Notes under the pieces: model-generated
Seen by the model: the letters and a program-made list of their open reading frames with translations, nothing else
Told to the model about the DNA's origin: nothing
Database searches by the model: none
Made by a program: the position numbers and the translations under genes
From: Saccharopolyspora galaxeae
GTDB lineage: Bacteria; Actinomycetota; Actinomycetes; Mycobacteriales; Pseudonocardiaceae
NCBI RefSeq assembly: GCF_016526145.1
Contig: NZ_JADDUE010000015.1
Location: forward strand, 1-64,000
Direction of reading: 5' to 3'
DNA: 64,000 nt
Part shown: one piece after another, positions 1,511 through 53,629 of the stretch
How the letters are laid out: each line of letters begins with the position of its first letter
Numbering within the stretch: position 1 is the first letter of the stretch

Positions 1511-2305
1511 ATGCACGATTTCGCCGACATCGATTACAAGGTCGACAACGGGCTGGCCTGGATCACCATCGACCGCCCGAGCCGGTTCAACTCCTTCCGC
1601 GCGCAGACCGTCGATGAGCTGGTCAAGGCGTTCAAGCTGGCGTGGGCGAGCAAGGACGTAGGCGTCATCTGCCTGACGGGTGCAGGAGAGAAGGCGTTCT
1701 GCGCCGGAGGTGACCAGAAGCAACGCGCCGAGACCGGGGACTACGGCCCATCCGACTCCGGTCTGTTCGAGGTCGATGCCCTGCACCGGGTCATCCGCGA
1801 CGTACCGAAGCCGGTGATCGCCGCGGTCAACGGCTTCGCCATCGGCGGCGGGCACGTCCTGCACGTGCTGTGCGACCTGACGATCGCCGCCGACACCGCG
1901 GTCTTCGGGCAGAACGGCCCGCGCGTCGGTTCCTTCGACGCCGGCTTCGGCAGCGCGTACCTGGCGCGCGTGCTCGGCGAGAAGCGCGCACGGGAGGTGT
2001 GGTTCCTGTGCCGCCGCTACAGCGCCGAGAAGGCGGAGCGGTGGGGGCTGGTGAACGAGGTGGTTCCGCTCGCCGACCTGCACTCCGAGGTGCGTTCCTG
2101 GGCCGACGAGATCCTCGCGCTGTCGCCGACCGCGCTCAAGGTGCTCAAGCAGTCGTTCAACACCGACACCGAGCACTTCGCCAGCGTCGGCTCGCTGGCG
2201 TACTCCTACCTCAAGACCTTCGGCGAGTCCGCCGAGGCGCTGGAAGGCATCAACGCCTTCAACGAGAAGCGCAGCCCCGACTTCTCCGCCTACCGCGGCG
2301 CCTGA
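1511..2305 (+). CDS. BadI-like 2-ketocyclohexane-carboxyl-CoA hydrolase (MenB/BadI crotonase subfamily)
   Basis: A 264-residue crotonase. Along its length it resembles BadI of Rhodopseudomonas palustris, which opens the ring of 2-ketocyclohexanecarboxyl-CoA to pimelyl-CoA, and to a lesser degree MenB naphthoate synthase. Visible signatures are AFCAGGDQ (about 62-69), RDVPKPVIAAVNGFAIGGGH (about 97-116) and FGQNGPRVGSFDAGFG, where the VGSFD aspartate is the MenB/BadI hallmark replacing the hydratase glutamate, and the C-terminal NEKRSPDFSAYR. It is followed after 22 bp by an acyl-CoA dehydrogenase, which suits a ring-opening then beta-oxidation role. The start ATG follows a weak GAAAGG about 10 nt upstream. 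BadI versus MenB specificity is inferred, but no other men gene is nearby. Confidence 0.82.
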   Translation: MHDFADIDYKVDNGLAWITIDRPSRFNSFRAQTVDELVKAFKLAWASKDVGVICLTGAGEKAFCAGGDQKQRAETGDYGPSDSGLFEVDALHRVIRDVPKPVIAAVNGFAIGGGHVLHVLCDLTIAADTAVFGQNGPRVGSFDAGFGSAYLARVLGEKRAREVWFLCRRYSAEKAERWGLVNEVVPLADLHSEVRSWADEILALSPTALKVLKQSFNTDTEHFASVGSLAYSYLKTFGESAEALEGINAFNEKRSPDFSAYRGA

Positions 2306-32286: not shown

Positions 32287-33177
32287 TCAGGCCCGCCGCG
32301 GGAACCGCCCGAACTCCGGAGGACGCTTCTCCTTGAACGCCTCTCGTCCTTCCCGGGCCTCGTCCGTGGCGTAGAACAGCAGGTTCGCGTCGTGGGCGAG
32401 CTGCTGGACACCGGACAACCCGTCTTCGGCGGCGTGGAAGCTGGCCTTCATCAGGCGCAGCGCGAACGGCGAGAGCTCCAACATCCCGCGGCACCACTCG
32501 ATGGTCTCGCGTTCCAGGTCCTCCAACGGCACCACCGTGTTGACCAGCCCCATCTCGCGGGCGGTCGCCGCGTCGTACTGGCGGCACAGGAACCAGATCT
32601 CCTTGGCCTGCTTGAAGCCGACCAGCTGGGCGAGCAAACCGGCGCCGAAACCACCGTCGAACGACCCGACCTTCGGGCCCGTCTGGCCGAAGCGCGCGTT
32701 GTCGGCGGCGATGGTCAGATCGCAGATCAGGTGCAGCACGTTGCCGCCGCCAACCGCGTACCCGGCCACCATCGCCACGACGGGTTTCGGCAGCCGGCGG
32801 ATCTGGACCTGCAGGTCGGTCACGTGGAACCGGCCGACCGCCCGAGCTTCCCCCGGTTCGGCGAGGTATCCGGTGTCGCCGCGGACCCGCTGGTCCCCTC
32901 CGGAGCAGAACGCCTCGGTGCCCTCGCCGGTCAGGATGATGACGCCGACGTCGGGATCTTCCCTGGCGTGCATCAGCGAGTCCGAGATCTCGACGAGCGT
33001 TTGCGGGCGAAAGGCGTTGTGCACCTCCGGGCGGCGAATCGTGATCTTTGCGATCCCGTCCCCGCTGTGCTCGTAGCCGATGTCGTCGTACTGCTGCACC
33101 GGCTGCCACAACACGTCGTCCTGCGCGCCCAATCCTCGTCCCTCCGCTGGCGATTCAGTCCGCTCGGTGCCCGTCAC
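32287..33177 (-). CDS. MenB/BadI-type ring-modifying crotonase
   Basis: A 296-residue protein highly like E. coli-type Men[60 protein letters not shown] and [24 protein letters not shown] are recognisable. MenB closes a ring by Claisen condensation, and its relative BadI opens one by the reverse reaction. No menaquinone genes are nearby, but the next upstream gene is badH-like. I therefore favour ring opening of 2-ketocyclohexanecarboxyl-CoA or a relative. Its GTG start overlaps the badH-like stop (GTGA). Confidence 0.82.
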
Positions 33178-33932
33178 GCCATCGTCAGGCCGCCGCTGAC
33201 CGACAGCGTCTGCCCGGTGACGTACCCGGCCGCGTCCGAGGCGAAGAAGGCCACTGCCGCGGCGATGTCGTCGGGCTCTGCGAGCCGGCGCATCGGCACC
33301 GCCTTGGTCATGCCGCCGATGACCTTCTCGGCGTCCTGCCCGGAGCTGTCCGCGAACTTGCGAAGCGCCGGAGTGTCGGTCGGACCCGGGCACACGGTGT
33401 TCGCAGTGATTCCCTTGGTCGCCACCTCGCGCGCGAGGGTCTTGGTGAAGGAGATGATCCCGCCCTTCGCCCCGGAGTACACCGACTCCAGCGAGGACCC
33501 GACCCGGCCCGCGTCCGAGCCGACGTTGACCACCCGGCCCCACCCGCGGTCGATCATCCCGGGCACCGCCGTCTTGACCACCCGCAGCGCGCCCTTGAAG
33601 TTGACCTCCAGGATGCGGTCCCAGAACTCCTCGGTGGTGTCGACGAACTTCATGAAGTCGTCGAAGCCCGCGTTGTTCACCACGATCTCGACGGGCCCGA
33701 GCTCGTCGGCCGCGGTCTTGAGCGCGGACTCGACCGATCCGGTGTCGGTCACGTCGACCTCGACCGGAACCGCCTTGCCATCACCACTGGTGATGGACCC
33801 GGCCGTCTCCTTCGCGCGTTGCAAGTTGAGGTCGGCCACGGCGACGCGGAAACCCTGGGCACCGAGGGTCTTGGAGATCCCCTCACCGATCCCCTGCGCA
33901 CCACCGGTCACGAAGGCGACTCGATTGCTCAT
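33174..33932 (-). CDS. BadH-like 2-hydroxycyclohexanecarboxyl-CoA dehydrogenase (SDR)
   Basis: A 252-residue classical [11 protein letters not shown] (9-16), NNAGFDDF (about 88-95), catalytic Ser in [12 protein letters not shown] (about 138-149) and YSGAK (about 154-158). NAGFDDF, the [10 protein letters not shown] loop and [10 protein letters not shown] are close to R. palustris BadH, which oxidises 2-hydroxycyclohexanecarboxyl-CoA to the 2-keto compound, the substrate of BadI. The ATG at 33932 has GGGAG 7 nt upstream. First gene of an eight-gene operon, and translationally coupled to the menB/badI-like gene, which strongly supports the ring oxidation-opening pairing. Confidence 0.85.
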
Positions 33933-39504: not shown

Positions 39505-40638
39505 CTAGCGGACCAGCCGGAAGAACTTCCGCAGCTCTTCGACGAAGATCTTGGGCTGCTCCAGCGAGGCGAAGTGCCCGCCGGCCGGCAGCTCGTTCCA
39601 GTACCGAATGTTGACCAGCCGGGTCTCCGCGCGGGCCCGCGGAACGCGGATCATCTCCTTCGGGAAAATCGAGCAGCCGGTCGGCACGGTGATCTGATCC
39701 CGCGGCAGATCGGCAAGGCTCTCCCAGTAGATCCGAGCCGCCGACGCCCCAGTGTTCGACAGCCAGTACAGCATCACGTTGTCCAGCAAGGCATCCCGGT
39801 CGACCGCGTTCTCCGGGTGGCCGACGCAGTCGGTCCAGCCGTGGAACTTCTCCACGATCCAGGCGAGCTGCCCGACCGGGGAGTCGGCGAGACCGTAGCC
39901 GAGGGTCTGCGGTTTGGTCATCTGCTCGACGAAGTAGCCGGTGCCGCTGGTTCCGTAGTCGGCGCTGATCGCCGCCCCCTGCTTCTCGAAGTCGTTCATC
40001 GACTCCGGCGGGTCGGGTTCGGCGGCGAGGTCGACGTACGGGATCGGCAGGTGCACGCCGACGACCCGGTCCGGGGCGATAGCCGCGAGCCGCGCGGACA
40101 CCACCGATCCCCAGTCCCCGCCGTGCGCACCGAAACGCGGGTAGCCGAGCCTGGTCATCAGCTCCGCCCACGTATCCGCGATGCGCTTCACTCCCCAACC
40201 GGTGGAGCTCGGCCGACCGCTGAAGCCGAAACCGGGCAGCGACGGGACCACGACGTGGAAGGCGTCGGCCGGGTCCGGCGGGTCGGTGAGCGGTTCGACG
40301 AGGTCCAGGAACTCCCGGACCGATCCCGGCCAGCCGTGCGTCAGGATCAGCGGAAGCGCTCCCTCGTGCGGAGACCGCGCGTGCAGGAAGTGGATATCCA
40401 CACCGTCGATCTCGGTACGGAACTGCTGCGCGGCGTTCAGTTTGCGCTCACACCTGCGCCAGTCGTATCCGTCCGCCCAGTAGGCGGCCAGGTCCTGGAT
40501 GTAGGACAGCGGGATGCCCTGCGACCAGTCCTCGACGGGCTGTTCACCGGGCCACCGAACGCGTTCCAGACGAGCGCGGAGATCGTCGAGCTGATCCTGT
40601 GCGACGTCCAGTTCAAACTGCTTGACCTGATTGTTCAC
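39505..40638 (-). CDS. Epoxide hydrolase (EphB/microsomal-type N-terminal domain)
   Basis: A 377-residue alpha/beta hydrolase with the N-terminal lid domain of microsomal-type epoxide hydrolases (VAQDQLDDLRARLERVRWP, about 12-30). The oxyanion motif HGWPGS (about 100-105), the nucleophile in HGGDWGSVV (about 172-180), and a catalytic His in AGGHFASLEQP near the C-terminus are present. It opens epoxides to diols. GTG start at 40638. Last gene of the operon headed by the benzoyl-CoA-reductase-like subunits. This would be unusual in an anaerobic pathway, and suggests the operon handles oxygenated intermediates. Confidence 0.86.
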   Translation of the reverse strand: MNNQVKQFELDVAQDQLDDLRARLERVRWPGEQPVEDWSQGIPLSYIQDLAAYWADGYDWRRCERKLNAAQQFRTEIDGVDIHFLHARSPHEGALPLILTHGWPGSVREFLDLVEPLTDPPDPADAFHVVVPSLPGFGFSGRPSSTGWGVKRIADTWAELMTRLGYPRFGAHGGDWGSVVSARLAAIAPDRVVGVHLPIPYVDLAAEPDPPESMNDFEKQGAAISADYGTSGTGYFVEQMTKPQTLGYGLADSPVGQLAWIVEKFHGWTDCVGHPENAVDRDALLDNVMLYWLSNTGASAARIYWESLADLPRDQITVPTGCSIFPKEMIRVPRARAETRLVNIRYWNELPAGGHFASLEQPKIFVEELRKFFRLVR

Positions 40639-40670
40639 GCTGCTTCCCTTCCCGATGCCGATGTCGGAGG

Positions 40671-41183
40671 TCAGTCGTGGTGGGCGGGGTCGAGGTTCGA
40701 GCCGAGTGCTGCTGCGTCCTGCGGAAATCCGGTCGATCGGTAGAACGCGAGTTCGCGATCCCCTTGCGCGCGGGCGGTTTTCGCGAGCAGCGTCCGCGCG
40801 GCGCTCGCCTCGGGGCCGTCGAGCAGCGCCGAGGCCACGCTCATGGCGTGCTGCTTGAGGCGGCGGTTCTGCCCGGCGAGCTCGGCCAGCGGCACGCTCG
40901 CCTCGTCCGGCGCGGGTCCCGCCTCGGCCAAGCTGGAGTCGATCTCTGGGCGATCGCTGCCGGACAGGGCGCTCAGTGCGGTCAGCAGGCTGCGGTATTC
41001 GTGGTTCTCCACGACCTGGTATCGATACTCGTGCTCATGCGTGTCGAGCAGCCAGTCGAAGGTCGCGAGCATGAGTTTCGCTTGCTCCTGCGCAAACTCC
41101 GCGTCCGCGGGCAGCGCGGGCAGGATGGTGTCGCAGAACCGGCGGCGCATCGACTGCAATTGCTGGGTGACGGTGGGAACCAC
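40671..41183 (-). CDS. Helical partner of APH-fold kinase (second copy)
   Basis: A 170-residue, helix-rich soluble protein of unknown family. It starts at a GTG (41183), two bases after the kinase stop, so the two are translationally linked. Its N-terminal region (SMRRRFCDTILPALPADAE, then FAQEQAKLMLATFDWLLDTHEHEYRY) aligns with that of the protein at 7046-7600, which occupies the same position after another APH-fold kinase. The analogy is with LvaA/LvaB. I see no catalytic signature, which suits an accessory or stabilising subunit. Confidence 0.62.
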   Translation of the reverse strand: MVPTVTQQLQSMRRRFCDTILPALPADAEFAQEQAKLMLATFDWLLDTHEHEYRYQVVENHEYRSLLTALSALSGSDRPEIDSSLAEAGPAPDEASVPLAELAGQNRRLKQHAMSVASALLDGPEASAARTLLAKTARAQGDRELAFYRSTGFPQDAAALGSNLDPAHHD

Positions 41184-41185
41184 GA

Positions 41186-42343
41186 TCAGTCCTTCGCCAG
41201 TATCCGGTTGAGCTCGCCGATGAAGTAGCCGCCCAGCCCGGAGATGTAGTTGTACATGACGTCAAGCTCGGTCATCTGGACGTCGGCGTTGCGCGGCCCC
41301 GTGCCGATCAGTGAGACCACGGCCCAGTACAGGTTGAGCACCAGGTAGTACTCCAGGCGCTCCCGGTCCACCGGCAGGCAGGAGATCCGCTCGTACTCGG
41401 CGATGAACGTGTCGGTACGCACTAGGCCGGAGTTGAGGTAGTGGCCGGCCCCGTCCGGGTGACCCCAGCCGGGCAGCATCGCGTACGCGAGGTCCGAATG
41501 CCGGTCGCCGAGATGTCCCAGCTCCCAGTCCAGGATCGCCGTGATGTCCCCGGAATCCTCATCGAACAGGAAGTTCCCGTTCCGGTAATCCCCGTGCAGC
41601 AAGGAAACGTGGTCGACGACCGGTCGGTTCTCGGACAGCCACTGCCGGGCCAGCACGACGGTCGGGTGGGGTTCGAGCGCGTCCTCGTCCCAGGACCGGT
41701 TCCACATCGCCAACCGCCGATCCACCGCGTCCGTGGTGTCCGGCCGGGGCAGGTCGAAACCGCTCAGGTCGTCGCCCGACCAGTCGTGCGCGTGCAGCCT
41801 GGCCAGGTGCTCGACGAATTGCGGGGCGAGCAGCCGCCGCAGCTCCGGCCCGTACGCGGTGCCGAGTCCGGTCGCGGGCGGGACGTTCCTCGTCGGGGAC
41901 GGTACGCCGGGTGCCCTGCCGCAGATCAATGCCGGCTCGCCGAAATCGTCCGGGTCGGTGCTCACCCAATACGGCTCTGGCACAGGGATCACACCGTACG
42001 TCGCCTGCAACAGCTGGAACTCGCGCTCCACCTCGGTGACGCAGATTCCCGACGGCGCCTTCACTCGCAGCACCAGGTCGTCGCTGCGATCACCGCGTAG
42101 GAGCCGGAAGCGGTACGACTCGTTGGCACCTCCGCCGGATAGCCGGGCGAAGTCCTGGACCGTGAACGGGCTTTCCGCCCTAGCGGCGATGAAACGCTCC
42201 AGCCGCTCGCGCATCTCCTCGATGGGGCGTCGGCCGCGGTGTTCTCCGGCTGCTCTGCGCCGCAACTTCTCGTCGAAACGCTGGGCAAGGTTCCGCTCGA
42301 CGGAACAGCGCGGCGGGTCGTCAGCGCGTGTTCGTACTGTCAT
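41186..42343 (-). CDS. APH-fold phosphotransferase, LvaA-like
   Basis: A 385-residue kinase. The catalytic loop is LLHGDYRNGNFLFDE (about 250-264), the metal motif ILDWELGHLGDRHSDLAY (about 271-288) and the N-lobe SGGGANESYRF and LVLRVKAP. It is the closest relative of the kinase at 7605-8756 in the window; both share a GLGT...LAPQFVEHLA..LH.HDW block and both are followed at once by a helical partner gene. ATG at 42343 has AGGAGG 9 nt upstream. In the reductase operon it may phosphorylate a ring-hydroxylated CoA ester to prepare elimination (inference). Confidence 0.84.
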   Translation of the reverse strand: MTVRTRADDPPRCSVERNLAQRFDEKLRRRAAGEHRGRRPIEEMRERLERFIAARAESPFTVQDFARLSGGGANESYRFRLLRGDRSDDLVLRVKAPSGICVTEVEREFQLLQATYGVIPVPEPYWVSTDPDDFGEPALICGRAPGVPSPTRNVPPATGLGTAYGPELRRLLAPQFVEHLARLHAHDWSGDDLSGFDLPRPDTTDAVDRRLAMWNRSWDEDALEPHPTVVLARQWLSENRPVVDHVSLLHGDYRNGNFLFDEDSGDITAILDWELGHLGDRHSDLAYAMLPGWGHPDGAGHYLNSGLVRTDTFIAEYERISCLPVDRERLEYYLVLNLYWAVVSLIGTGPRNADVQMTELDVMYNYISGLGGYFIGELNRILAKD

Positions 42344-42374
42344 AGTCCGACCTCCTTGTCGGGCTATCGGGCTG

Positions 42375-43187
42375 TCAGGCCACGGAGATTCCGCCGTTCA
42401 CGCTGACGACCTGGCCGGTGATCAATCGGGACAGCGGCGAAGCGAGGAAGAGCACGAGATTGGCCAGGTCCTCAGGTTCGGTGGCGCCGAGGTGGGCCTG
42501 CGAGGTGATGCGGTCGAAGATCTTCTTGCTGAATTCCTGATCCATCGCCCGGTCGTAGGAGCCGGTGCCGACGATCAGCGACGGGGTGATGACGTTGACC
42601 CGGACCCCCTCCCGCTTGGCCTCCAGTGCGAGGGTCCGGGAGAACGTCGTGATCGCCCCCATCGCAGCCCCGATGCAGGTTTCCCCCGGTGTCGGCACCT
42701 TGGTCGCGTCCGAGGCAATGTTGATGATGGAACCGTTCCGCTGCTCCGCCATGAACGGGAGCACGGCGCGGCTCATGAGCAACGGCGCCACCGCCTGCTC
42801 GGTCACGACCTTCGCGACCTGTTCGGTGGGTGTGTTCCGGAGCAGTGTCGGCTGGTACGGAGCTACCGTCGAGTTGACCAGAACGTCCAGCGCCCCCAGC
42901 CGCCGGTGTGCCTCCCGGGCGGCCTCTTCCGCGGATGCAGGGTCATTGGCGTCGGTCGGCAGGAATTCGAGCTCGGCACCCGGAACGTTCTCCTGCACAT
43001 GACCGACTGCCCGCTTGCCGCGCTCCTCGTTGCGCCCCAGAACCACCAGCCTGCGACAGCCCGCTTGGGCGAAGGACACCGCCGTCGCCAAGCCCACGCC
43101 GGAGGTCCCGCCCGCGATTACCACCGCCGTCTCGGAGAAGTCGAACCCATCAGCGGCTCGCAGCGCCTCGTGCGCCCGATCGGTCAT
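42375..43187 (-). CDS. SDR-fold protein lacking the catalytic Tyr/Lys
   Basis: A 270-residue SDR-fold protein. The cofactor motif IAGGTSGVG is present and the C-terminus RLITGQVVSVNGGISVA is typical. The NNAG motif reads VNSTVAP, and where BadH has YSGAK this protein has IGAAM, so both catalytic Tyr and Lys appear to be lost while the region around (NIASDATKVP) keeps the Ser. It may bind a nucleotide or CoA ligand without normal dehydrogenase chemistry. It sits between the activase and the kinase in the reductase operon, with a good AAGG ribosome-binding site. Confidence 0.78.
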   Translation of the reverse strand: MTDRAHEALRAADGFDFSETAVVIAGGTSGVGLATAVSFAQAGCRRLVVLGRNEERGKRAVGHVQENVPGAELEFLPTDANDPASAEEAAREAHRRLGALDVLVNSTVAPYQPTLLRNTPTEQVAKVVTEQAVAPLLMSRAVLPFMAEQRNGSIINIASDATKVPTPGETCIGAAMGAITTFSRTLALEAKREGVRVNVITPSLIVGTGSYDRAMDQEFSKKIFDRITSQAHLGATEPEDLANLVLFLASPLSRLITGQVVSVNGGISVA

Positions 43188-43272
43188 GTCTTGATTCCTT
43201 TCATGTCCACCTAGTACGGCTCGGAGCGCCGCGCCACGGAGTTCGCGCTCCCGTACGCGCGAATACAGGTGC

Positions 43273-44199
43273 TCAGACGGGCCGGATCGGAAGAATGGGG
43301 TGGTCGGCCGATGGCTCGACCGTCTCCGGCACTCCGCAGGTCGAGCAGGACGGTGCCGCCCCGGAAGTGACCAGCGTTGCGCGCTCGTCCGTCTCGGTAT
43401 CCGGACTCTGCGTCCTGGGCTCTCCGCGGTCGCGCGCCAGTAGCGCCGCGCCGTAGGCACCCGTGATCTGCGGCCACCTCGGCACCGTGATCGTCTCGCG
43501 CAGCGCCTCCTCCAGGAACCGCACCACCGCGGTGTTCTTGGCGACCCCGCCGGTCATCACGACGGGGCTCCGCTTGCCGACCTGCGCCACAAGGCCGGCC
43601 ATGCGCGCCGACACCGCCCGGTGCACCGACGCGGCGATGTCCTCCCGCCGCTCCCCCGCTGCCAGCAGCGAGATGAGCTCGGTCTCCGCGAAGGTCGCGC
43701 ACATGCTGCTCACTTCGAGGTCCTTGCCACCGTTCAGCGCGAGCTCGGAGAGTTCGGCGATGTCGCACTCGATCGCGCGGGCCAGCACGTCGAAGAAGCG
43801 TCCGGTACCGCTCGCGCAGCGGTCGTTCATCGCGAAGTTGTCCGCGATTCCCTCGTCGTCCACCTGGATCGCCTTGCTGTCCTGCCCGCCGATGTCGACC
43901 ACGAGCCGGACTCCCGGGCACATCGCGGCGACGCCGCGCGCGTGGCAGGTGATCTCGGTGAAGGTGCGACCGGAACCCGGGACCAGGCGGCGTCCGTAAC
44001 CGGTCGCGATGGTCTGCGCGATATCGGATTCCGCTAGCCCGGCCGAGTGCAGCGCCGCGTCGACCGAACGGCTCAGACCCGCCCGGCTCACCGCCCCCAT
44101 CTGCACGACCTCGGAGGCGACGATCCCGCCGAAGTCATCGACGATCACCGTCTTGGCCGTCGTCGACCCCAGGTCAACACCCATGAAGTGCTCAGGCAT
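43273..44199 (-). CDS. ATP-dependent activase of benzoyl-CoA reductase / 2-hydroxyacyl-CoA dehydratase
   Basis: A 308-residue ASKHA-fold ATPase of the HgdC/BcrD/BadG type. It drives single electrons to the partner enzyme by ATP hydrolysis. Phosphate-1 motif GVDLGSTTAKT (7-17), DIGGQDSKAI (about 102-111), and the two cluster cysteines C128 (NDRCASGTGRF) and C167 (SSMCATFAE), almost exactly where HgdC has C127 and C166. These hold one [4Fe-4S] bridged across the dimer. A C-terminal tail of about 45 residues beyond the usual end includes CSTCG, a possible extra metal site. ATG 44199 with GGAGG 5 nt upstream. Only one activase gene is seen, whereas class I benzoyl-CoA reductases have two. Confidence 0.9.
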   Translation of the reverse strand: MPEHFMGVDLGSTTAKTVIVDDFGGIVASEVVQMGAVSRAGLSRSVDAALHSAGLAESDIAQTIATGYGRRLVPGSGRTFTEITCHARGVAAMCPGVRLVVDIGGQDSKAIQVDDEGIADNFAMNDRCASGTGRFFDVLARAIECDIAELSELALNGGKDLEVSSMCATFAETELISLLAAGERREDIAASVHRAVSARMAGLVAQVGKRSPVVMTGGVAKNTAVVRFLEEALRETITVPRWPQITGAYGAALLARDRGEPRTQSPDTETDERATLVTSGAAPSCSTCGVPETVEPSADHPILPIRPV

Positions 44200-44231
44200 C
44201 GTCGCCTCCAGGAAATCCGCGGATCGGCCGG

Positions 44232-45569
44232 TCAGCCCGTGACGGCGCGACTGCGCCGCACGTCGATGCTCTCCAGCATCGCCACCAGCCGACTCTCCAG
44301 AACCTCGTCCTTGTAGAACGACGCATCTGCGACGTCACCTTCGAAGAAGATGGACGGGATGCCGAGGTCGCGCTGGGCCGCCTTGGCGACCAGCTGCTGC
44401 GGGTTGGTGAAGGCGCGGCAGGTGCGGGTGGAGTGGAACACGATCCCGTCCATCCCGTACTCCTCGCAGTCGCGGAGCACCAGGTCCTGGATCGTCTTGG
44501 TGCCGTGGTTGGTCGGGCACAGCAGGTAGTGTTTGGCCATGCCCGGGATCGGATTCTCCGGGTCGATCATGTGCGGCTCCTGCCAGAACGCGTGGTGGGT
44601 GTAGCGCCCGGCTATGACGGAGACGTCGTGGGCGGCGAACTTCTTGGCGAGCCAGCCCAGTTTGTTCCAGTTCATGATGCCGTCGAAGTAGAGCCGGTAG
44701 CGCTCGTTCTGCACGCCGCTGATCCCCTCCGCGACGCGCCGCTCGACCTCCGCCTTGACCGCCGCGAAGAAGTCCACGAGCTCCTGGCTGGCGGGCAGGA
44801 AGTTGATGTGCGCGATGCTGGAGATCCAGTCCCAGAACGTCGCCGGGGCGGGGGTGAGCTTGCACAGCGCCATCGCCTCACGGCGGAGCTCGGAAGCGCG
44901 CTTGATGTAGGCCATGTTCTGCCGCAGCGCATCCCAGTCGAAGGGCCGCCCGGTCTGGTGCTCGATGAAGTCGATCAGTTTGTAGAGCTGATCCTCCACG
45001 TGCAGCGAGGTCTGCTCCCACTCCTCACCGACGAGGTATCCCGCATCCGGCTTGTTGCCCCACAGGAACGGCAGGGAGACGTTGAACATCGGCAGCTCTT
45101 TGCCGAACACCCGGAATGAGATGTCGTCCCACTGCTGGCCGGTGCTGCACCCGGAGTAGGCGTTGACGAAGAAGTCGGGAGCGGGCAGCTTGCTGGCGAG
45201 TTGCTCCTGCTCGGGCATGCCCACGATCCCGGTCGCTTCGCCCTGGCGGCTCTTCTGGGTGAGCACCGCGCATCCCAGGTGGGTGCGGGAGTACGAGCAG
45301 AGCTCACCGATGTAGCCGTACTCCTCGCCCGCCTGCTGGGCCGGTACCTCCAGGTGCTGCGCCGCCAGCCGTGCCGAGAATGCCTCCCCGTGGCACCACA
45401 CCAGGCCGGCCGCCTGGAAGATCGGGTTCAGCGCCTGGCCGTTGTACCAGACCACCTGGTCGCCGCGCTCACGTGCGTTGAAGACGCCGTCCCAGTAGTC
45501 GGAGATCATCTTGCTGCCGGCCTTGTTGACTTCCAGACGCCTGGTCTTGTCCATGACTGGAGTGCTCAT
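44232..45569 (-). CDS. Benzoyl-CoA reductase BcrB/BadE-like subunit (2-hydroxyacyl-CoA dehydratase family)
   Basis: A 445-residue member of the HgdB/FldB/BcrB family, matching the roughly 440-residue BcrB length. Conserved cysteines are seen at C59 (VWCHGE), C91 (GELCSYSR), C100, C141 (YSGCSTGQQWD) and in HSTRTCRAF near residue 395; several of these would ligate the active-site [4Fe-4S] cluster. No signal peptide. It lies between the BcrC-like gene and the activase, the same order as badDEFG and bcrCBAD. The family either reduces the aromatic ring of benzoyl-CoA or removes water from 2-hydroxyacyl-CoA; sequence alone does not separate the two. Confidence 0.85.
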   Translation of the reverse strand: MSTPVMDKTRRLEVNKAGSKMISDYWDGVFNARERGDQVVWYNGQALNPIFQAAGLVWCHGEAFSARLAAQHLEVPAQQAGEEYGYIGELCSYSRTHLGCAVLTQKSRQGEATGIVGMPEQEQLASKLPAPDFFVNAYSGCSTGQQWDDISFRVFGKELPMFNVSLPFLWGNKPDAGYLVGEEWEQTSLHVEDQLYKLIDFIEHQTGRPFDWDALRQNMAYIKRASELRREAMALCKLTPAPATFWDWISSIAHINFLPASQELVDFFAAVKAEVERRVAEGISGVQNERYRLYFDGIMNWNKLGWLAKKFAAHDVSVIAGRYTHHAFWQEPHMIDPENPIPGMAKHYLLCPTNHGTKTIQDLVLRDCEEYGMDGIVFHSTRTCRAFTNPQQLVAKAAQRDLGIPSIFFEGDVADASFYKDEVLESRLVAMLESIDVRRSRAVTG

Positions 45570-45627
45570 GTGATCACTTCCTGCGATTGGGAGCGGCTGC
45601 GCTTCGGCAGCGGCAGCGGTTCAGGTA

Positions 45628-46791
45628 TCAGGAGCTGACGAGCTGGGTGCGGCGAATGCGTTCCAGGAGCGCTTCCACCCGGGTCCGGACGTTCTCCTCC
45701 GGGACCCCCTCGTGCTCGGTCTCGATGAGCAGGTGCGGGACACCTCGTTCGTCCAATGCCTTGCGCAGCTCGGGGTAATAGAGCATGTGCGGCTCGCAGA
45801 ACTTGACCAGCAGCACGATCACGCCCTGCGCCCCACTCCGGTCGATGGAGTTCAGCAGGTAGTCCTCCCAGTCCGCCTCGTGCTGGACCAGCGTCGAGCA
45901 CGGGAGGTTGGCGTCGCGCTTCAGATACCAGTCGCTGAGTGCGTCCACGGGATCGACGTCCTCGGGCACATCGGTCGAGATGTACCGCATGCCGGTGAAC
46001 AGGTCGTCGTCCACGACGAGCGCACCGCAATCCTCGATCGCCCGCAGGAGTTCCGGTTTCGGGGCGTGGCTGAAATGGCCCGACAGGTACAGCCGGACTC
46101 GGTCGTCGCGGGGTACTTCCGCGGCTTCCGCGATGACCCGTCGGAGCAGTTGGGTGTGCTCGGCCTTGTCCATGACCATGCTGGACTTGACCAGCACTTG
46201 CATGTCCTCGGCGGTGAACTGGGCGTTGCCCGACCTGCGAGCCTCGAAGATCTCCCGCAGCAGCCTGCGGTTCTCATTGAACAGCGCGATGCTGCGGGAC
46301 AACGCCTCCGGCGTCACCGGAGCCCCGGCGAACTCGCCCATCTCGTCCACAAATGACCGCATCATCTTCCGGGTGTCCTCCGGGGTCCACCGATCGCCGA
46401 GCGAGGTCGGCAGGTGGCCGAAGTACATCGGCTTGTCCGGCGACTCGAACCGGACCACGTCCACCGCGCCGAGCAGCTGGATGCAGTGGTCGGCCAGGAA
46501 GAACCCGTCGTAGAGGTCGAGCTTTCCCTTGGCCGCGGAGTCGGCGATGTTGCGGGTGTAGCCGCAGTAGAACTCTGCCAGCAGGTTGCGGCCGTGGGTG
46601 TCTGGCTCGCGGTTCTCCTGGATCACCACCGGCAGCGCCCCGGCGGCGTGCGCGATCTCGGCCGGGAAGTTCATTGGGAAGGCCCCGACCACCTTGCCGC
46701 CGGTTCGCTCCTTCCACCGCGCGACGTAGGCGTCCGGGTCCTCGGCGATCTCGGCGAGCGGGGCCAGCGCGGCCGCGAGTGTCTCCGACAC
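45628..46791 (-). CDS. Benzoyl-CoA reductase BcrC/BadD-like subunit (2-hydroxyacyl-CoA dehydratase family)
   Basis: A 387-residue protein of the same family, matching the roughly 384-residue BcrC. Cysteines at C76 (AEFYCGYTRN), C103 (LADHCIQLL) and in VLLVKFCEPHMLYYPELRKA, the conserved C-terminal block that ends HLLIETEHEGVPEENVRTRVEALLERI. Start taken as the GTG at 46791 with AGGTG 8 nt upstream; longer in-frame extensions would run into the divergent promoter region. With the BcrB-like subunit it should form the heterodimer that receives electrons from the activase. First gene of the seven-gene operon. Confidence 0.85.
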   Translation of the reverse strand: MSETLAAALAPLAEIAEDPDAYVARWKERTGGKVVGAFPMNFPAEIAHAAGALPVVIQENREPDTHGRNLLAEFYCGYTRNIADSAAKGKLDLYDGFFLADHCIQLLGAVDVVRFESPDKPMYFGHLPTSLGDRWTPEDTRKMMRSFVDEMGEFAGAPVTPEALSRSIALFNENRRLLREIFEARRSGNAQFTAEDMQVLVKSSMVMDKAEHTQLLRRVIAEAAEVPRDDRVRLYLSGHFSHAPKPELLRAIEDCGALVVDDDLFTGMRYISTDVPEDVDPVDALSDWYLKRDANLPCSTLVQHEADWEDYLLNSIDRSGAQGVIVLLVKFCEPHMLYYPELRKALDERGVPHLLIETEHEGVPEENVRTRVEALLERIRRTQLVSS

Positions 46792-46972: not shown

Positions 46973-47007
46973 ATACATTCATGGACACTAAGGGCCCTTG
47001 AATGTAT
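46973..47007. promoter_or_regulatory. Inverted repeat ATACATTCA ... TGAATGTAT
   Basis: Perfect 9-bp arms (46973-46981 and 46999-47007) with a 17-bp spacer. A third half-site AATGTAT lies at 46924-46930. The arrangement suggests cooperative binding of a regulator between the two divergent promoters. Confidence 0.55.
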
Positions 47008-47141
47008 CTTCCCTGGCGTCCGAGGCCCGCCGCCGGCCACGCATCCGTCCGCATCTCGCACGCGCGGGCGAGTGCCACGGCACGCGAACCGCCCATCGCG
47101 CGGGCCAGTGCGAAGCCTTTCCACCGACCTTCGAGGAGCCG

Positions 47142-48173
47142 ATGACCATGGGCCCGATCGCCAACCGGTACACCCGGCTGTCCGACATCGAGCATCCGAT
47201 CGTGCAGGAAGGACTGGGGCCGTTCCGCACCCCCAAGCTCGCCGCGGCGGTGAGCAACGCGGGCGGTCTCGGGACGGTGAGCATGCCCGGCTTCCCGCGC
47301 GACCTGGCCGAAGGAGCCCGGGAGTTCCGCGCGCACATCGAGGAGTGCGCCGCGCTGACCGACAAGCCGTTCGCGGTCAACGTGCCGGTCGGCGTGGACG
47401 GCGACGGCAAGGTCCTGGAGTTCACCGACACCTACATCAAGACCGCGCTGCGGGCGCGAGAGGAGGACGACCGGATCGCCGAGCGGCTGACCGTGCTGAC
47501 CACCTCCGCCGGATTCCCCGGCGCGTACGTGGCGCCGATCAAAGACGCCAGCATGGTGCACCAGCACAAGGTCGGCTCCACCGCCCAAGCCGTCAAAGCC
47601 CAGCAGGCCGGGGTCGACGCGATCATCGCCGCCGGCTTCGAGATGGGCGGGCACGCCCCGAGCAAGGGGGTGCACACGTACGTGCTCGTGCCCAGCGTGG
47701 CCGCGGCCGTCGACGTGCCCGTCGTGCTCTCCGGCGGAGCCAAGGACGGGCCGACCCTGGCGGCGGCGCTGTGCATGGGAGCCGATGCGGTCGCGATGGG
47801 CACCAGGTTCATCGCCTCGGAGGAGAACTCCGACTGGCACCCGTACTACGCGCAGGCACTGCTGGCGGCCCGGGAGGGCGACGACATCGCCTTCACCGGC
47901 GTGTACGGCCCGTGCCGCGGGCTGCGCAACCGAGCGTCCCTGCGCCTGGCCGAGGAGCACGGCGAGACCACCAACCCCGCCGAGCTCTTGCGGTGGAAGA
48001 TCGAGTCCATGCAGCGTGCGCAGACCGAGGGGGACGTGGAGGACGGGCTCGTCCTCGCCGGGCAGGTCACCGGTGCGATCCAGGACATGATAAAGATCGC
48101 CGAGTTCGTCCCCGCCATGGCCGACGAAGCAGCCGCCGTGCTCGACCGGCTCGCCCCGGGGGCGCACAGCTGA
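47142..48173 (+). CDS. Nitronate monooxygenase-like FMN-dependent flavoprotein
   Basis: A 343-residue TIM-barrel FMN protein of the nitronate monooxygenase / 2-nitropropane dioxygenase superfamily. Features are HPIVQEGLGPFRTPKLAAAVSNAGG near the N-terminus, GFEMGGHAP (about 167-175), VVLSGGAKDGPTLAAALCMGADAVAMGTRFIAS (about 196-228), the phosphate-binding region. Catabolic members such as mycobacterial IpdC act on alicyclic CoA intermediates rather than nitroalkanes. The ATG at 47142 has GAGGAG 3-4 nt before it. Divergent from the reductase operon and followed by two terminator hairpins. It probably serves as an enoyl/dienoyl-CoA reductase or dehydrogenase (inference). Confidence 0.82.
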   Translation: MTMGPIANRYTRLSDIEHPIVQEGLGPFRTPKLAAAVSNAGGLGTVSMPGFPRDLAEGAREFRAHIEECAALTDKPFAVNVPVGVDGDGKVLEFTDTYIKTALRAREEDDRIAERLTVLTTSAGFPGAYVAPIKDASMVHQHKVGSTAQAVKAQQAGVDAIIAAGFEMGGHAPSKGVHTYVLVPSVAAAVDVPVVLSGGAKDGPTLAAALCMGADAVAMGTRFIASEENSDWHPYYAQALLAAREGDDIAFTGVYGPCRGLRNRASLRLAEEHGETTNPAELLRWKIESMQRAQTEGDVEDGLVLAGQVTGAIQDMIKIAEFVPAMADEAAAVLDRLAPGAHS

Positions 48174-48308: not shown

Positions 48309-48635
48309 TCAGTGGCCGGCTGCCCGCTCGGGCAGCTCGGCGATCGGCTCGACGTCGAGGTCCGTCCTGCCCACCTTCGACCCGCCGCCGGAGACCCCCG
48401 CCTCGACGAAGAAATCCGCATTCGCCTTGGTGTACGCGTCCCACTCCTCCGGGACGTCGTCCTCGTAGTAGATGGCCTCCACCGGGCATACCGGCTCGCA
48501 GGCACCGCAGTCGACGCACTCGTCGGGGTGGATGTAGAGCATCCGTCCGCCCTCGTAGATGCAATCCACCGGGCACTCGTCGATGCACGTCTTGTCGAGC
48601 ACGTCCACGCACGGCTCGGCGATCACGTAGGTCAC
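48309..48635 (-). CDS. 7Fe ferredoxin, FdxA type
   Basis: A 108-residue low-potential ferredoxin. Cysteine pattern C9, C17, C21 followed by Pro (CVDVLDKTCIDECP) for the [3Fe-4S] cluster, and C40-x2-C43-x2-C46-x3-C50-Pro (CVDCGACEPVCP) for the [4Fe-4S] cluster. The C-terminal acidic tail is typical of actinobacterial FdxA. GTG start at 48635 with AAGGA 8 nt upstream. It can carry electrons from KorAB (50.2-53.1 kb) to the activase at 43273, as in benzoyl-CoA clusters (inference). Confidence 0.93.
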   Translation of the reverse strand: MTYVIAEPCVDVLDKTCIDECPVDCIYEGGRMLYIHPDECVDCGACEPVCPVEAIYYEDDVPEEWDAYTKANADFFVEAGVSGGGSKVGRTDLDVEPIAELPERAAGH

Positions 48636-50190: not shown

Positions 50191-51276
50191 TCACGGGGAT
50201 ACCGTCCAGGTGTCGGTTCCGTTCAGCAGAGACTGGAGATCGGCACGTTCGCCACGCCCGGCCGCCGCCCGCACCTGTTCGCGGACGAGGTCGTCGTACG
50301 CGGGGCGGCGCACCTGCCGGAAGATTCCGGTGACGACATAGCCCAGGTCGTGATCGGTCAGGCGGGACAGTCCGAACGCCTGCGTCGGGTCGTCCGCGGC
50401 CGGGTCGTGCCGCAGCACGGCGTCCGCACCCGGCTCGGCGACGCGGCGGACGGCGAGTGCGCCGCTGGCCGAATCGCGTACCACGCCGAATTCCCCCGCC
50501 CCGTCCGGAGATTCGGGACCAAACCGCACCGGTTCACCGTCGCGGAGCGGAATGATGCGGCGCTCGGATTCCGCCTTGTCGGTGAGCACGTCGAACGCGC
50601 CATCGTTGAAGACCGGGCAGTTCTGGTAGACCTCGACCAGCGAGGCGCCGCGGTGGTCGGCGGCGGCCTGCAGCACGTCGGTGAGCATCTTGCGGTCGGA
50701 GTCGATCGCCCGTGCCACGAAGGTGGCTTCGGCGCCCAGCGCCAGCGAGACCGGGTTGAACGGGTGGTCCACCGACCCCGCGGGCGTCGACTTCGTGACC
50801 TTCCCCGGCTCGGAGGTCGGCGAGTACTGGCCCTTCGTCAGACCGTAGATCCGGTTGTTGAACAGCAGGATCGTAAAGTTCACGTTGCGCCGCAGCGCAT
50901 GAATCAGGTGATTGCCGCCGATGGACAGCGCGTCCCCGTCCCCGGTGACCACCCAGGTCGACAGGTCCGGGCGGGACAGCGCCAGCCCCGTGGCGATCGT
51001 CGGCGCGCGGCCGTGGATCGAGTGCATCCCGTAGGTGTTCATGTAGTACGGGAATCGCGACGAGCACCCGATTCCCGAGATGAACACGATGTTCTCGCGC
51101 TTGAGCCCGAGCGTCGGCAGGAACGACTGCACCGCGTTGAGCACGACGTAGTCCCCGCAGCCCGGGCACCACCGGACCTCCTGGCCGGACTTGTAGTCCT
51201 TGGCCTTCTGCGGTTCGGTGCTGCCGGGGACGTCGTGCTGCCCGCCGACGAGCGGCAGGCCCAGGTCCGTCGTCAT
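50191..51276 (-). CDS. korB: 2-oxoglutarate:ferredoxin oxidoreductase, beta subunit (KorB)
   Basis: A 361-residue TPP-binding subunit. Cys motif VRWCPGCGDYVVL (about 35-47) and GIGCSSRFPYY (about 68-78) hold the [4Fe-4S] cluster, and the TPP motif is VVTGDGDALSIGGNHLIHAL ... LLFNNRIYGLTKGQYSPTS (about 109-150). With KorA it converts 2-oxoglutarate to succinyl-CoA and reduces ferredoxin, replacing 2-oxoglutarate dehydrogenase in many actinobacteria. ATGA overlap with korA. In Thauera-type clusters this enzyme feeds benzoyl-CoA reductase with electrons. Confidence 0.94.
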   Translation of the reverse strand: MTTDLGLPLVGGQHDVPGSTEPQKAKDYKSGQEVRWCPGCGDYVVLNAVQSFLPTLGLKRENIVFISGIGCSSRFPYYMNTYGMHSIHGRAPTIATGLALSRPDLSTWVVTGDGDALSIGGNHLIHALRRNVNFTILLFNNRIYGLTKGQYSPTSEPGKVTKSTPAGSVDHPFNPVSLALGAEATFVARAIDSDRKMLTDVLQAAADHRGASLVEVYQNCPVFNDGAFDVLTDKAESERRIIPLRDGEPVRFGPESPDGAGEFGVVRDSASGALAVRRVAEPGADAVLRHDPAADDPTQAFGLSRLTDHDLGYVVTGIFRQVRRPAYDDLVREQVRAAAGRGERADLQSLLNGTDTWTVSP

Positions 51277-53129
51277 GCTCGCACTCCCTCTAAAAATTCG
51301 CGGAGGACACCCTGGAGCTCTTCGGCCTTGAACGGCAGACCGGCGACCTTGGTATAGTCGGCGCAATCGACGAGGTACCTGGCTCGGATCAAGGTGGCCA
51401 GTTGACCGAGGTTCATCTCCGGGACCAGCACGCGCTCGTAGCGGTGCAACACGGAACACAGGTTCGCCGGAAACGGGTTCAGGTGACGCAGGTGGGCGTG
51501 CGCCACGTCGTGGCCTTGGCCGCGGATTCGCCGCACCGCGGCGCTGATCGGGCCGCACGTCGACCCCCAGCCCAGGACCAGCGCCTTGGCCCGGTCGCCG
51601 GGATCGTCCACCACGACGTCCGGCACGTCGATCCAGTCGATCTTGGCCTGGCGGAGCCGGACCATTTTGTCGTGGTTGTCCGGGTCGTAGGAGATGTCGC
51701 CCGTCCCGTCCTCCTTCTCCAGCCCGCCGATCCGGTGCTGCAGGCCAGGCGTGCCCGGCACCGCCCAGGGCCGTGCCAGCGTGTCGGGATCTCGCAGATA
51801 CGGCCAGAACTCCCCTGATCCGTCCGTGGCATTGCCCTCCACCGCGAACGCAACCCGCAGATCGGGCAGCTCGGCCACGTCCGGGATCAGCCACGGCTCG
51901 GAGCCGTTGGCGATGTAGCCGTCCGACAGCAGCACCACCGGAGTCCGGTATTTCAACGCGATTCGCGAGGCTTCCAGCATGCTGGCGAAGCAGTCAGCGG
52001 GCGAGGACGGCGCCAGTACGGCGACCGGCGATTCCCCGTTCCGGCCGTACATGGCCTGCATCAGGTCGGCCTGCTCGGTTTTGGTGGGCAGGCCCGTGGA
52101 CGGGCCGCCGCGCTGGATGCCCAGCACCACCAACGGAAGCTCGGTCATCACCGCGAGGCCGATCATCTCCGACTTCAGCGCCAGGCCCGGCCCGGACGTC
52201 GAGGTGACGCCGAGACCGCCGCCGAAGGCGTGCCCGACTGCGGCCCCGACGCCGGCGATCTCGTCCTCCGCCTGGAAGGTCGTGATGCCGAAGTCCTTGT
52301 GCTTGGCCAGTTCGTGCAGGACGTCCGAAGCCGGGGTGATGGGGTAAGTGCCCAGCAGGACCGGCAGTTCGGAGCACCGCGACGCGGCGACGATCCCGTA
52401 CGCGAGCGCGGTGTTGCCGGTGATCTGCCGGTAGGCACCGGGGGCGAGCTTGGCGGGTGCGACTTCGTAGCTGACCGCGAACGCCTCTGTCGTCTCGCCG
52501 TAGTTCCACCCGGCCCGGAACGCCTGCACGTTGGCCTCGGCGACTTCCGGCTTCTTGGCGAACTTCTCGCGGAGGAACCGCTCGGTCGCCTCACCGGGCC
52601 GGTTGTACATCCAGGAGAGCAGGCCGAGCGCGAACATGTTCTTGGAACGCTCGGCCTCCTTCTTCGACAGACCCGATTCCTCGAGCGCCCCGCGGGTCAA
52701 GGTGCCCATCTGCACCCGGTGCACGGCGAAGGATTCCAGCGACCCGTCACCCAAGGGGTCGGCGTCGTACCCGACCTTGGCGAGGTTCCGCTTGGTGAAC
52801 TCGTCGGTGTTGACGATCAGCGTCCCGCCGGCCGAGAGGTCGGCGATGTTGGACTTCAGCGCGGCCGGGTTCATGGCCACCAGGACGTCCGGCCGGTCGC
52901 CGGGCGTGGCGATGTCGGTGTCGGCGAAGTGCAGCTGGAACGACGACACCCCGGGCAACGTGCCGTGGGGAGCGCGGATCTCCGCCGGGAAGTTGGGCAG
53001 CGTGGCGAAGTCGTTGCCGAACAACGCCGTCTCGGAGGTGAACCGATCGCCGGTGAGCTGCATCCCGTCGCCGGAGTCGCCGGCGAACCGGATCACCACC
53101 CGGTTCACCCGCTCGACCGAAGCGCGCAC
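51273..53129 (-). CDS. korA: 2-oxoglutarate:ferredoxin oxidoreductase, alpha/gamma fused subunit (KorA)
   Basis: A 618-residue subunit, N-terminal gamma domain (IRFAGDSGDGMQLTGDRFTSE, about 11-31) fused to the alpha pyrimidine-binding domain (LLGTYPITPASDVLHELA about 250-267; FQAEDEIAGVGAAVGHAFGG; GPSTGLPTKTEQADLMQAMYGRNGE). Matches mycobacterial KorA (Rv2455c). GTG start at 53129 with AGGAGG 5 nt upstream. korA precedes korB with a 4-bp overlap. The promoter region upstream carries GTGTAGTAG motifs shared with the LuxR gene promoter. Confidence 0.94.
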   Translation of the reverse strand: MRASVERVNRVVIRFAGDSGDGMQLTGDRFTSETALFGNDFATLPNFPAEIRAPHGTLPGVSSFQLHFADTDIATPGDRPDVLVAMNPAALKSNIADLSAGGTLIVNTDEFTKRNLAKVGYDADPLGDGSLESFAVHRVQMGTLTRGALEESGLSKKEAERSKNMFALGLLSWMYNRPGEATERFLREKFAKKPEVAEANVQAFRAGWNYGETTEAFAVSYEVAPAKLAPGAYRQITGNTALAYGIVAASRCSELPVLLGTYPITPASDVLHELAKHKDFGITTFQAEDEIAGVGAAVGHAFGGGLGVTSTSGPGLALKSEMIGLAVMTELPLVVLGIQRGGPSTGLPTKTEQADLMQAMYGRNGESPVAVLAPSSPADCFASMLEASRIALKYRTPVVLLSDGYIANGSEPWLIPDVAELPDLRVAFAVEGNATDGSGEFWPYLRDPDTLARPWAVPGTPGLQHRIGGLEKEDGTGDISYDPDNHDKMVRLRQAKIDWIDVPDVVVDDPGDRAKALVLGWGSTCGPISAAVRRIRGQGHDVAHAHLRHLNPFPANLCSVLHRYERVLVPEMNLGQLATLIRARYLVDCADYTKVAGLPFKAEELQGVLREFLEGVRA

Positions 53130-53629
53130 GCCAACCTCCTTGTGAGCCGGAACAACCCGGGCGCAGTGCGCTGGGGCGCACCCTGCCGACGCCGAACGAT
53201 CGACCCGGCGCCGGCAGGCTCCCCGCGCATCCGCGCCAACACCCATGCCCACCGGCTCGGACTCCGTCCGAGCCGGTGACCACCAATCGACAATATACTA
53301 CATCGATGCGTACTCACAATCCGCGTGTGTAGTAGTTTCTTTTGGATTCGGAGCTACCCCGGCAGACGTTGACATGCAGTGGAACGTCCCGCACGACACT
53401 CACCGAGCGAACTCAGCTTGTTGCACATCGGGATTTGTTCGAGCCGCGGGCACGTGTCAGGAGAGCCAAAAGTCCACTTAGGACGCGACGCGCGGCAGCT
53501 CCGAAGGCGCGGAAAGTACTACACTACCGACGACCTCGTTTCAGATCAGGTCATGTCGTCGGTCGCGGCTGGGCCGGGTCCTGTCCGTCCGCCGTGCTCG
53601 GTCCGGACGCGGAGCGGCACGGCGCCGAG
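53130..53629. other. korA promoter region
   Basis: About 500 bp between korA and the LuxR-type stop. It holds an inverted pair TACTACA (53296-53302) / TGTAGTA (53328-53334) in an AT-rich patch and a further TACTACAC at 53517-53524. No coding sequence supported. Confidence 0.5.
53296..53335. promoter_or_regulatory. Inverted TACTACA ... TGTAGTAG motif upstream of korA
   Basis: Half-sites at 53296-53302 and 53327-53335 (GTGTAGTAG). The same 9-mer occurs at 55979-55987 before the adjacent STAND/LuxR gene and an 8-base relative at 53517-53524. Candidate binding motif for that regulator. Confidence 0.55.

Follow-up and report, generated by a model that had tools for sequence, protein, structure and literature searches.

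A separate clade of two-subunit proteins of the benzoyl-CoA reductase/2-hydroxyacyl-CoA dehydratase family, encoded with a single activase in Saccharopolyspora galaxeae

What would a relative of benzoyl-CoA reductases and 2-hydroxyacyl-CoA dehydratases do in the actinomycete Saccharopolyspora galaxeae? The radical enzymes of this family are anaerobic, oxygen-sensitive catalysts, and a preliminary description of the locus had already remarked on the unusual host, an observation that holds insofar as an actinomycete does encode a pair of PF06050 proteins together with an activase. The locus lies in a 64,000-nucleotide stretch of contig NZ_JADDUE010000015.1 (assembly GCF_016526145.1; hereafter the window), and comprises an operon of seven open reading frames (ORFs) at 39505–46791, all on the minus strand and separated by gaps of 2–85 bp. 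Here we present evidence that the two PF06050 subunits, C and B, represent a clade of their own, and we tentatively read the genes at 43273–46791 as encoding a two-component, ATP-dependent [4Fe-4S] radical acyl-CoA enzyme with dehydratase-type chemistry on a 2-hydroxyacyl-CoA. The wide spread of the core genes, a conserved family of altered short-chain dehydrogenases/reductases (SDRs), a ferredoxin and a 2-oxoacid:ferredoxin oxidoreductase beside the operon, and a cluster with BadI/MenB-like genes at 1–35 kb were not part of the preliminary description.

C and B form a clade of their own

The C subunit (BcrC/HadC-like; 45628–46791, minus strand) and the B subunit (BcrB/HadB-like; 44232–45569, minus strand) had been picked out by their BcrC/BcrB lengths (387 and 445 aa) and C-then-B order. 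Both ORFs are in place, both match the Pfam HGD-D model (234.5 bits for C, 167.6 bits for B), and they are the only PF06050 proteins of the source genome (6.4 Mb, 34 contigs, 99.99% complete). The assignment of the pair to the benzoyl-CoA reductases (BCRs) did not survive comparison with the class I equivalogs, as the scores were 155.7 bits for TIGR02263 (cut-off 421.15), 85.1 for TIGR02260 (486.55), 144.4 for TIGR03190 (453.8) and 70.8 for TIGR03191 (448.6). On the basis of these cut-offs and the number of activases we set aside a true benzoyl-CoA reductase.

The clade is split off with 100/100 support in a tree of C (54 family rows of 81), in a tree of B (55 of 79) and in a concatenation (36 rows). 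The subunits do not fall firmly inside the aliphatic 2-hydroxyacyl-CoA dehydratases in either subunit tree, and the earlier suggestion of a possible new subtype stands. Judged by sequence, C and B appear to be a separate clade of the benzoyl-CoA reductase/2-hydroxyacyl-CoA dehydratase family, outside the sampled 2-hydroxyacyl-CoA dehydratases.

We compared the candidate cluster ligands with those of the reductase BzdNO, for which PMC11971306 gives Cys36/73/100/263/293/327 as [8Fe-9S] ligands in BzdN, and Cys95/128/380 with water, Glu65 and His131 in BzdO. Residues C76, C103, C298 and C332 of the window C subunit occupy four of the six BzdN positions, those of C36 and C263 being non-Cys. MbdN, from a true reductase, has only three of the BzdN ligand cysteines, with no Cys at the C298 position, and a count of four of six is therefore by itself no argument against a reductase. 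C298 is Cys in 56/56 family rows, in 9/9 anaerobe-type actinobacterial rows, in HadC and in BzdN, and in 0/9 BcrC rows. In B, the candidate ligands C91, C141 and C384, together with E62, match the BzdO Cys and Glu positions. Three Cys positions per subunit (C76/C103/C332 and C91/C141/C384) with E62 are the arrangement of a dehydratase, and BCRs share it. The cluster cysteines are invariant over three phyla. The position of BzdO His131 is Gly144 (Phe in MbdO, Val in HadB) in 56/56 family rows, some of which are identical sequences, and C351 of B, invariant in the clade, is Met in HadB and MbdO. Twelve residues of B (G44, P49, H60, S142, G144, Q146, D148, M299, N302, R322, F328 and W329) are each found in 56/56 rows and differ in the other groups. 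We modelled B with AlphaFold (14 rows; pLDDT 82.9, pTM 0.87), and in Foldseek the model matched HadB first (E 4.3e-21, TM 0.81/0.89), followed by MbdO (2.7e-20) and BzdO (4.9e-20), which amounts to a practical tie.

A single activase with a cysteine tail

Adjoining B is a gene for a HadI/HgdC-type ATP-dependent activase (43273–44199, minus strand, 308 aa; Pfam BcrAD_BadFG, 207.3 bits), whose nearest solved sequences are HadI (228.9 bits), HgdC (205.7), MbdQ (194.1) and MbdP (123.2). Its C128 and C167, previously equated with iron-sulphur cysteines of HgdC, indeed align with the Cys of HadI and HgdC and are present in 33/33 rows. The operon holds one activase of the ASKHA type, as had been stated; the one further PF01869 match in the genome is weaker (86.8 bits, above the Pfam cut-off) and sits on a different contig, contig 11. 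The activase carries a C-terminal CxxC tail (C285, C288), CxxxC in several Proteobacteria, of which the first Cys is present in 33/33 rows and the second is lost only in Desulfallas. This tail lies beyond the part aligned with HadI, which has 276 aa in the solved entry. The tail motif is absent from five other activase-like ORFs (two in L050 and one each in L056, L061 and L067), although the tail of the L056 ORF is not comparable because that ORF continues into a PF06050 region. The L056 ORF (1465–3798, on a plasmid of Azoarcus KH32C) is one uninterrupted frame with matches to the activase profile as well as to that of the C subunit, perhaps a natural fusion within another PF06050 branch.

An SDR without catalytic residues accompanies the core

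The next gene (42375–43187, minus strand, 270 aa; Pfam adh_short_C2) encodes an SDR, here SDR*, whose frame is open from 43460; the ATG at 43187, with its GGA-type ribosome site, agrees with the start called in locus L005. That its active site is altered, as first noticed from the window sequence, is borne out in that neither the Tyr nor the Lys of YxxxK is present in the window protein or in 33/33 aligned homologues, with the Rossmann glycine-rich motif retained. At least 95% of 34 rows, which span actinobacteria and Bacillota, share S170-D171-A172, T177-P178 and E180 (SDA and TPxE motifs; the numbering starts at 43220, chosen arbitrarily in frame). Because the loss of YxxxK is common to homologues across phyla, we regard it as the mark of a subfamily rather than as local decay. 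SDR* is a usual accessory that has probably ceased to be a Tyr/Lys oxidoreductase.

The core is widely but patchily distributed

A search of genome contigs with B yielded 41 loci. Among actinobacteria these are in Saccharopolyspora (87% identity), Nocardia, Rhodococcus, Amycolatopsis, Pseudonocardia, Nocardioides, Intrasporangium and others; outside them, in Zhongshania, a Rhodobacteraceae plasmid, Novosphingobium and, at 42–43% identity, Bacillus, Neobacillus and Desulfallas. Plasmid records of Rhodococcus ruber, Sphingopyxis macrogoltabida (two records) and Azoarcus KH32C added further carriers. The distribution is patchy: the clade occurs in 5 of the 200 genomes from the window's taxonomic family, its own included, and in a draw across the phylum 34 of 396 genomes match the B profile, of which only the window's own does so at clade level (833 bits; others at most 235). 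Loci L046–L100 show a clear gap between the clade and other sequences (B, at least 651 versus at most 237 bits; C, at least 505 versus at most 282).

Within at most 10 kb on each side (tblastn, 1e-20; loci fetched via B, and some stretches ended by contig ends), C and B were found at 41/41 loci and the activase at 39/41, frequencies that exclude chance occurrence. SDR* is present at 35/41 loci (33 by clustering, and L006 and L016 by tblastn), and was not found in the stretches of L007, L017, L023, L034, L035 and L037, four of which are short; in the L035 record SDR* lies ~34 kb away. Counts of other neighbours are lower bounds because gene calling was crude: at least 34 of the 41 loci have a CoA ligase, at least 19 a PaaX-like regulator, at least 9 an AliB-like acyl-CoA dehydrogenase, at least 7 a BadI/MenB-like protein and at least 8 a flavoenzyme like nitronate monooxygenase (NMO-like), which adjoins C in 7. 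The usual kit is C-B-activase with SDR*, frequently joined by a CoA ligase and a PaaX-like regulator. CaiB/BaiF-type CoA-transferase genes, which also accompany had and fld operons, lie near the core in the R. ruber, Azoarcus, Novosphingobium and Bacillota loci.

Nocardia miyunensis, N. alni and Citricoccus each have two C-B pairs. Novosphingobium colocasiae has three different pairs within ~36 kb (G002:C15:45012-80990), which suggests paralogues for different substrates. The Bacillota operons (L038–L045), in which CoA ligase, thiolase, acyl-CoA dehydrogenase, SDR*, C, B, activase, hydratases, an SDR, CaiB and other genes are found, look like a complete catabolic unit and may be where the substrate is most easily identified. 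A distant PF06050 pair on a Rhizobium leguminosarum plasmid (L050, 7887–13315) has two activases and stands beside genes for a rhodanese, a sulfate permease and an ABC binding protein; this branch is perhaps linked to sulphur compounds.

The remaining three genes of the operon are an APH-type kinase (41186–42343, minus strand; Pfam APH), a small kinase partner of 170 aa (40671–41183, minus strand), for which neither Pfam nor NCBIfam gave a match at E 0.001, and an EHN-type epoxide hydrolase (39505–40638, minus strand; Pfam EHN and Abhydrolase). They had been described as fused with the reductase-like genes and as parts of one system. The genes are separate, and we reject a fixed role for them in the system, since they recur at 1, 1 and 0 of the 41 loci, respectively, and are local additions. 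The entire operon is kept at 91–93% DNA identity in the genome G889, and the R. ruber and Sphingopyxis plasmids carry related kinases (38–39% identity). We also set aside a route from alkene to epoxide, diol and hydroxyacid, which would give the epoxide hydrolase a place before a dehydratase; appealing as it is, it rests on one lineage.

A ferredoxin and a 2-oxoacid:ferredoxin oxidoreductase lie beside the operon

Upstream of C lie a divergent FabK/NMO-like flavoenzyme gene (46998–48173, plus strand), whose actual start is probably downstream of the listed TTG, and genes on the minus strand for an actinobacterial-type ferredoxin, FdxA (48309–48635; NF045480, 180 bits, cut-off 125), for a KorB-like beta subunit of 2-oxoacid:ferredoxin oxidoreductase (50191–51294; TIGR02177, 245.4 bits, below the cut-off of 261.9) and for KorA, the alpha subunit of a 2-oxoacid:acceptor (ferredoxin) oxidoreductase (51273–53252). 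The order KorA-KorB-FdxA-NMO beside C-B is preserved in S. endophytica and G889. A large LuxR-type STAND regulator adjoining KorAB (53630–55933), likewise kept in these two genomes, may control the island.

The window KorA (645.7 bits) is the second copy of its genome, the other (655.9 bits) being on contig 28. Copies were counted across genomes for KorA: four congeners that lack the operon (G815, G848, G870 and G906) have one, and the window genome (G000), G889 and S. endophytica, in which the operon is present, have two, with the second ~4.5 kb from the operon. Rhodococcus jostii also has two. KorAB and FdxA are a plausible electron source for the C/B enzyme, which they would feed through the activase. 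We rejected KorAB as a universal partner, since, of the 52 loci searched (most with ~10 kb on each side), S. endophytica and G889 alone have it next to the core.

A catabolic setting possibly for cyclic compounds

Besides two BadI/MenB-like proteins, the first 35 kb of the window encode acyl-CoA dehydrogenases, enoyl-CoA hydratases, APH kinases, a thiolase and a CoA ligase. The cluster is orthologous to one on the R. ruber plasmid pmega_1, with 11 genes 60–82% identical to plasmid proteins. One BadI/MenB-like ring hydrolase (1511–2305, plus strand) scores 324.7 bits against a badI cut-off of 467.6, which no protein of the genome reaches (best 324.2 bits in the genome-wide search); the other (32287–33543, minus strand) is above the MenB cut-off and 82% identical to its R. 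ruber plasmid counterpart. The plasmid carries its own C-B-activase-SDR* and, ~30 kb away, a CYP108-type P450 that, among solved sequences, is nearest to P450tol (688 bits) and P450terp (473 bits). P450terp acts on alpha-terpineol. On a separate contig of the window genome (G000:C13:9403-10716) there is a CYP108-type P450 that is 69% identical to the R. ruber plasmid P450. The window segment 3674–8960 (~5.3 kb) is missing at the corresponding site of G815.

Comparable catabolic neighbours recur at other clade loci. In Azoarcus KH32C, the clade pair lies ~27 kb from BadI/BadH-type genes. The part of PMC4109377 available describes KH32C proteins closest to MrcD and MrcE, which on our reading are these mrcD/E/F-like plasmid genes near the clade pair. 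The Mrc monoterpene ring-cleavage genes of Castellaniella and KH32C resemble the present setting in their BadI-type hydrolase and BadH-type SDR, but the same part of that source mentions no Fe-S dehydratase for the Castellaniella pathway. For cyclohexanecarboxylate, a BadI/BadH/AliAB cluster is described in Rhodococcus (PMC5906575), and neither benzoyl-CoA nor hydroxyglutaryl occurs in the main text of that paper. As for the APH-type kinases, ATP-dependent dehydration of a tertiary alcohol via a phosphate ester is known (PMC7411048, in whose main text the word phosphotransferase is absent); by analogy, the kinases may carry out such chemistry.

Discussion

The sequences show the family, the clade, the candidate ligand residues, the single activase, the conserved kit, the neighbouring genes and the presence of ferredoxin and KorAB; in the dehydratase-type reading that we tentatively prefer, we infer the reaction, the substrate, an activase homodimer, the role of SDR* and the supply of electrons by FdxA and KorAB. 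This reading is favoured by the single activase nearest to HadI and HgdC, by the Cys pattern of C with C298 and without counterparts of BzdN C36 and C263, by the B ligands with Gly144 in place of BzdO His131, by the fold match of B to HadB, by the CoA-transferase genes near the core, and by FdxA and KorAB in the window together with the KorA counts in Saccharopolyspora. KorAB would oxidize a 2-oxoacid and reduce FdxA, which would in turn reduce a [4Fe-4S] cluster shared across the activase homodimer; ATP hydrolysis would then push one electron into the clusters of C and B. At the B cluster (predicted to have three Cys and an open site, adjoining E62), the thioester of a bound 2-hydroxyacyl-CoA would become a ketyl radical, from which the hydroxyl would leave, a proton would be lost and the electron would be returned to give an enoyl-CoA. 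This order of electron transfer would follow what is established for HgdC/HadI systems. The substrate would most likely be an alicyclic or branched hydroxyacyl-CoA from BadI/MenB-type, CYP108-associated breakdown of a cyclic terpenoid-like compound. Among the closest known systems, (R)-2-hydroxyisocaproyl-CoA dehydratase HadBC with its activator HadI shares two PF06050 subunits with three Cys positions each, a Glu near the B cluster, a single activase and the best fold match to B, but differs in identity (~21% in the B fold alignment), in many B residues and in clade.

Several observations weigh against a dehydratase. The HadB and HadC equivalog cut-offs are missed (120.8 versus 750 and 146.9 versus 700), and the top NCBIfam equivalogs are BCR subunits, both far below cut-off (for C TIGR02263, as given above; for the activase BcrA TIGR02259, 164.3 bits). 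C351 and N300 of B are common to BcrB in 9/9 rows and not to HadB. The concatenated tree leans to BCR+Mbd over the dehydratases (p-AU 0.53 when held with the former and 0.083 when held with dehydratase-like rows, neither being rejected), with long branches limiting sister-group placement. A dedicated KorAB would suit an electron-consuming enzyme; a dehydratase requires priming electrons only. At the same time KorA is single in the carriers G875, G939, G962, Nocardia, Zhongshania and Neobacillus, and was not found at 1e-60 in the Nocardioides and Novosphingobium carriers. Finally, G815, a genome of the same species, matches the window at 1–35087 at 95–97% apart from a segment at 3.7–9.0 kb (80 kb fetched, with matches ending at 35087) and has no operon. 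Since G815 has most of the catabolic cluster, the cluster can exist without the operon, and we rejected the idea that it needs it.

The main rival, somewhat unlikely in our view, is an enzyme working like class I BCRs, which would use ATP and a homodimeric activator to add two electrons to an aryl- or alicyclic dienoyl-CoA and would feed ring cleavage of the AliB/BadK/BadH/BadI type. Such an enzyme would fit the lean of the concatenated tree and, weakly, of the C tree (95/71) to BCR+Mbd, the residues shared with BcrB, the identity of the best equivalogs, the BadI/MenB-like and AliB-like genes near at least 7 and 9 of the 41 loci (with two BadI/MenB-like proteins in the window), and KorAB with FdxA beside the operon in Saccharopolyspora relatives. 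The known systems BcrCBAD, BzdNOPQ and MbdNOPQ have the same C-then-B gene order and fold. They have two activase subunits, however, where there is one here, and C and B remain far below their equivalog cut-offs. The BzdN full [8Fe-9S] ligand set and BzdO His131 are absent here, but they are absent from MbdN and MbdO too. The best Oah score genome-wide is 118.3 bits against a cut-off of 464.45, which is weak evidence against a BCR because BadI-like proteins are present and a Bad-type route would not need Oah. In addition, an aerobe whose gene set includes a P450 would be expected to have other routes. Double-cubane cluster proteins share the PF06050 fold and an ASKHA activator with the present system, but their model NF040772 is not reached (134.9 and 46.7 bits versus 350) and the subunits here are two and unlike.

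Another reductive reaction of the same machinery, for instance one that takes an allylic or tertiary hydroxyl off the substrate, or a step in which SDR* takes part on the same acyl-CoA, strikes us as improbable. The twelve B residues unlike both known groups and the regular presence of an SDR with a changed active site speak for it; there is no precedent among the literature matches listed, however, and neither the activase nor the main set of ligands departs from what is usual in the family. That the operon is left over from an anaerobic pathway and is decaying or not expressed would accord with its patchy occurrence in the window's taxonomic family, but is very improbable given that all seven frames are open in the window ORF list, that the cluster cysteines are invariant in three phyla and that several genomes have two or three pairs.

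The PF06050 family is known, and the C-B clade appears to be undescribed: among the matches listed, the open-access literature in PMC contained no description of it, and the terms 2-hydroxyacyl-CoA dehydratase and Rhodococcus never occurred in one paper there. The clade could, with rather less than even confidence, be an undescribed and widely shared class of ATP-driven [4Fe-4S] radical acyl-CoA enzymes in aerobes that serves P450-initiated degradation of cyclic terpenoid-like compounds, with a repurposed SDR as a regular companion and, in one lineage, a ferredoxin and a 2-oxoacid:ferredoxin oxidoreductase of its own. Nocardia, Rhodococcus, Amycolatopsis, Saccharopolyspora, Nocardioides, sphingomonads and Zhongshania are bacteria whose lifestyle we take to be aerobic, and a conserved branch of the family in them would mean that aerobes use or tolerate such radical chemistry. 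It raises the questions of how the clusters withstand oxygen and of the part played, next to a radical enzyme, by an SDR that lacks its catalytic residues. If true, the finding would give air-living bacteria an ATP-driven way of dehydrating or reducing ring acids.

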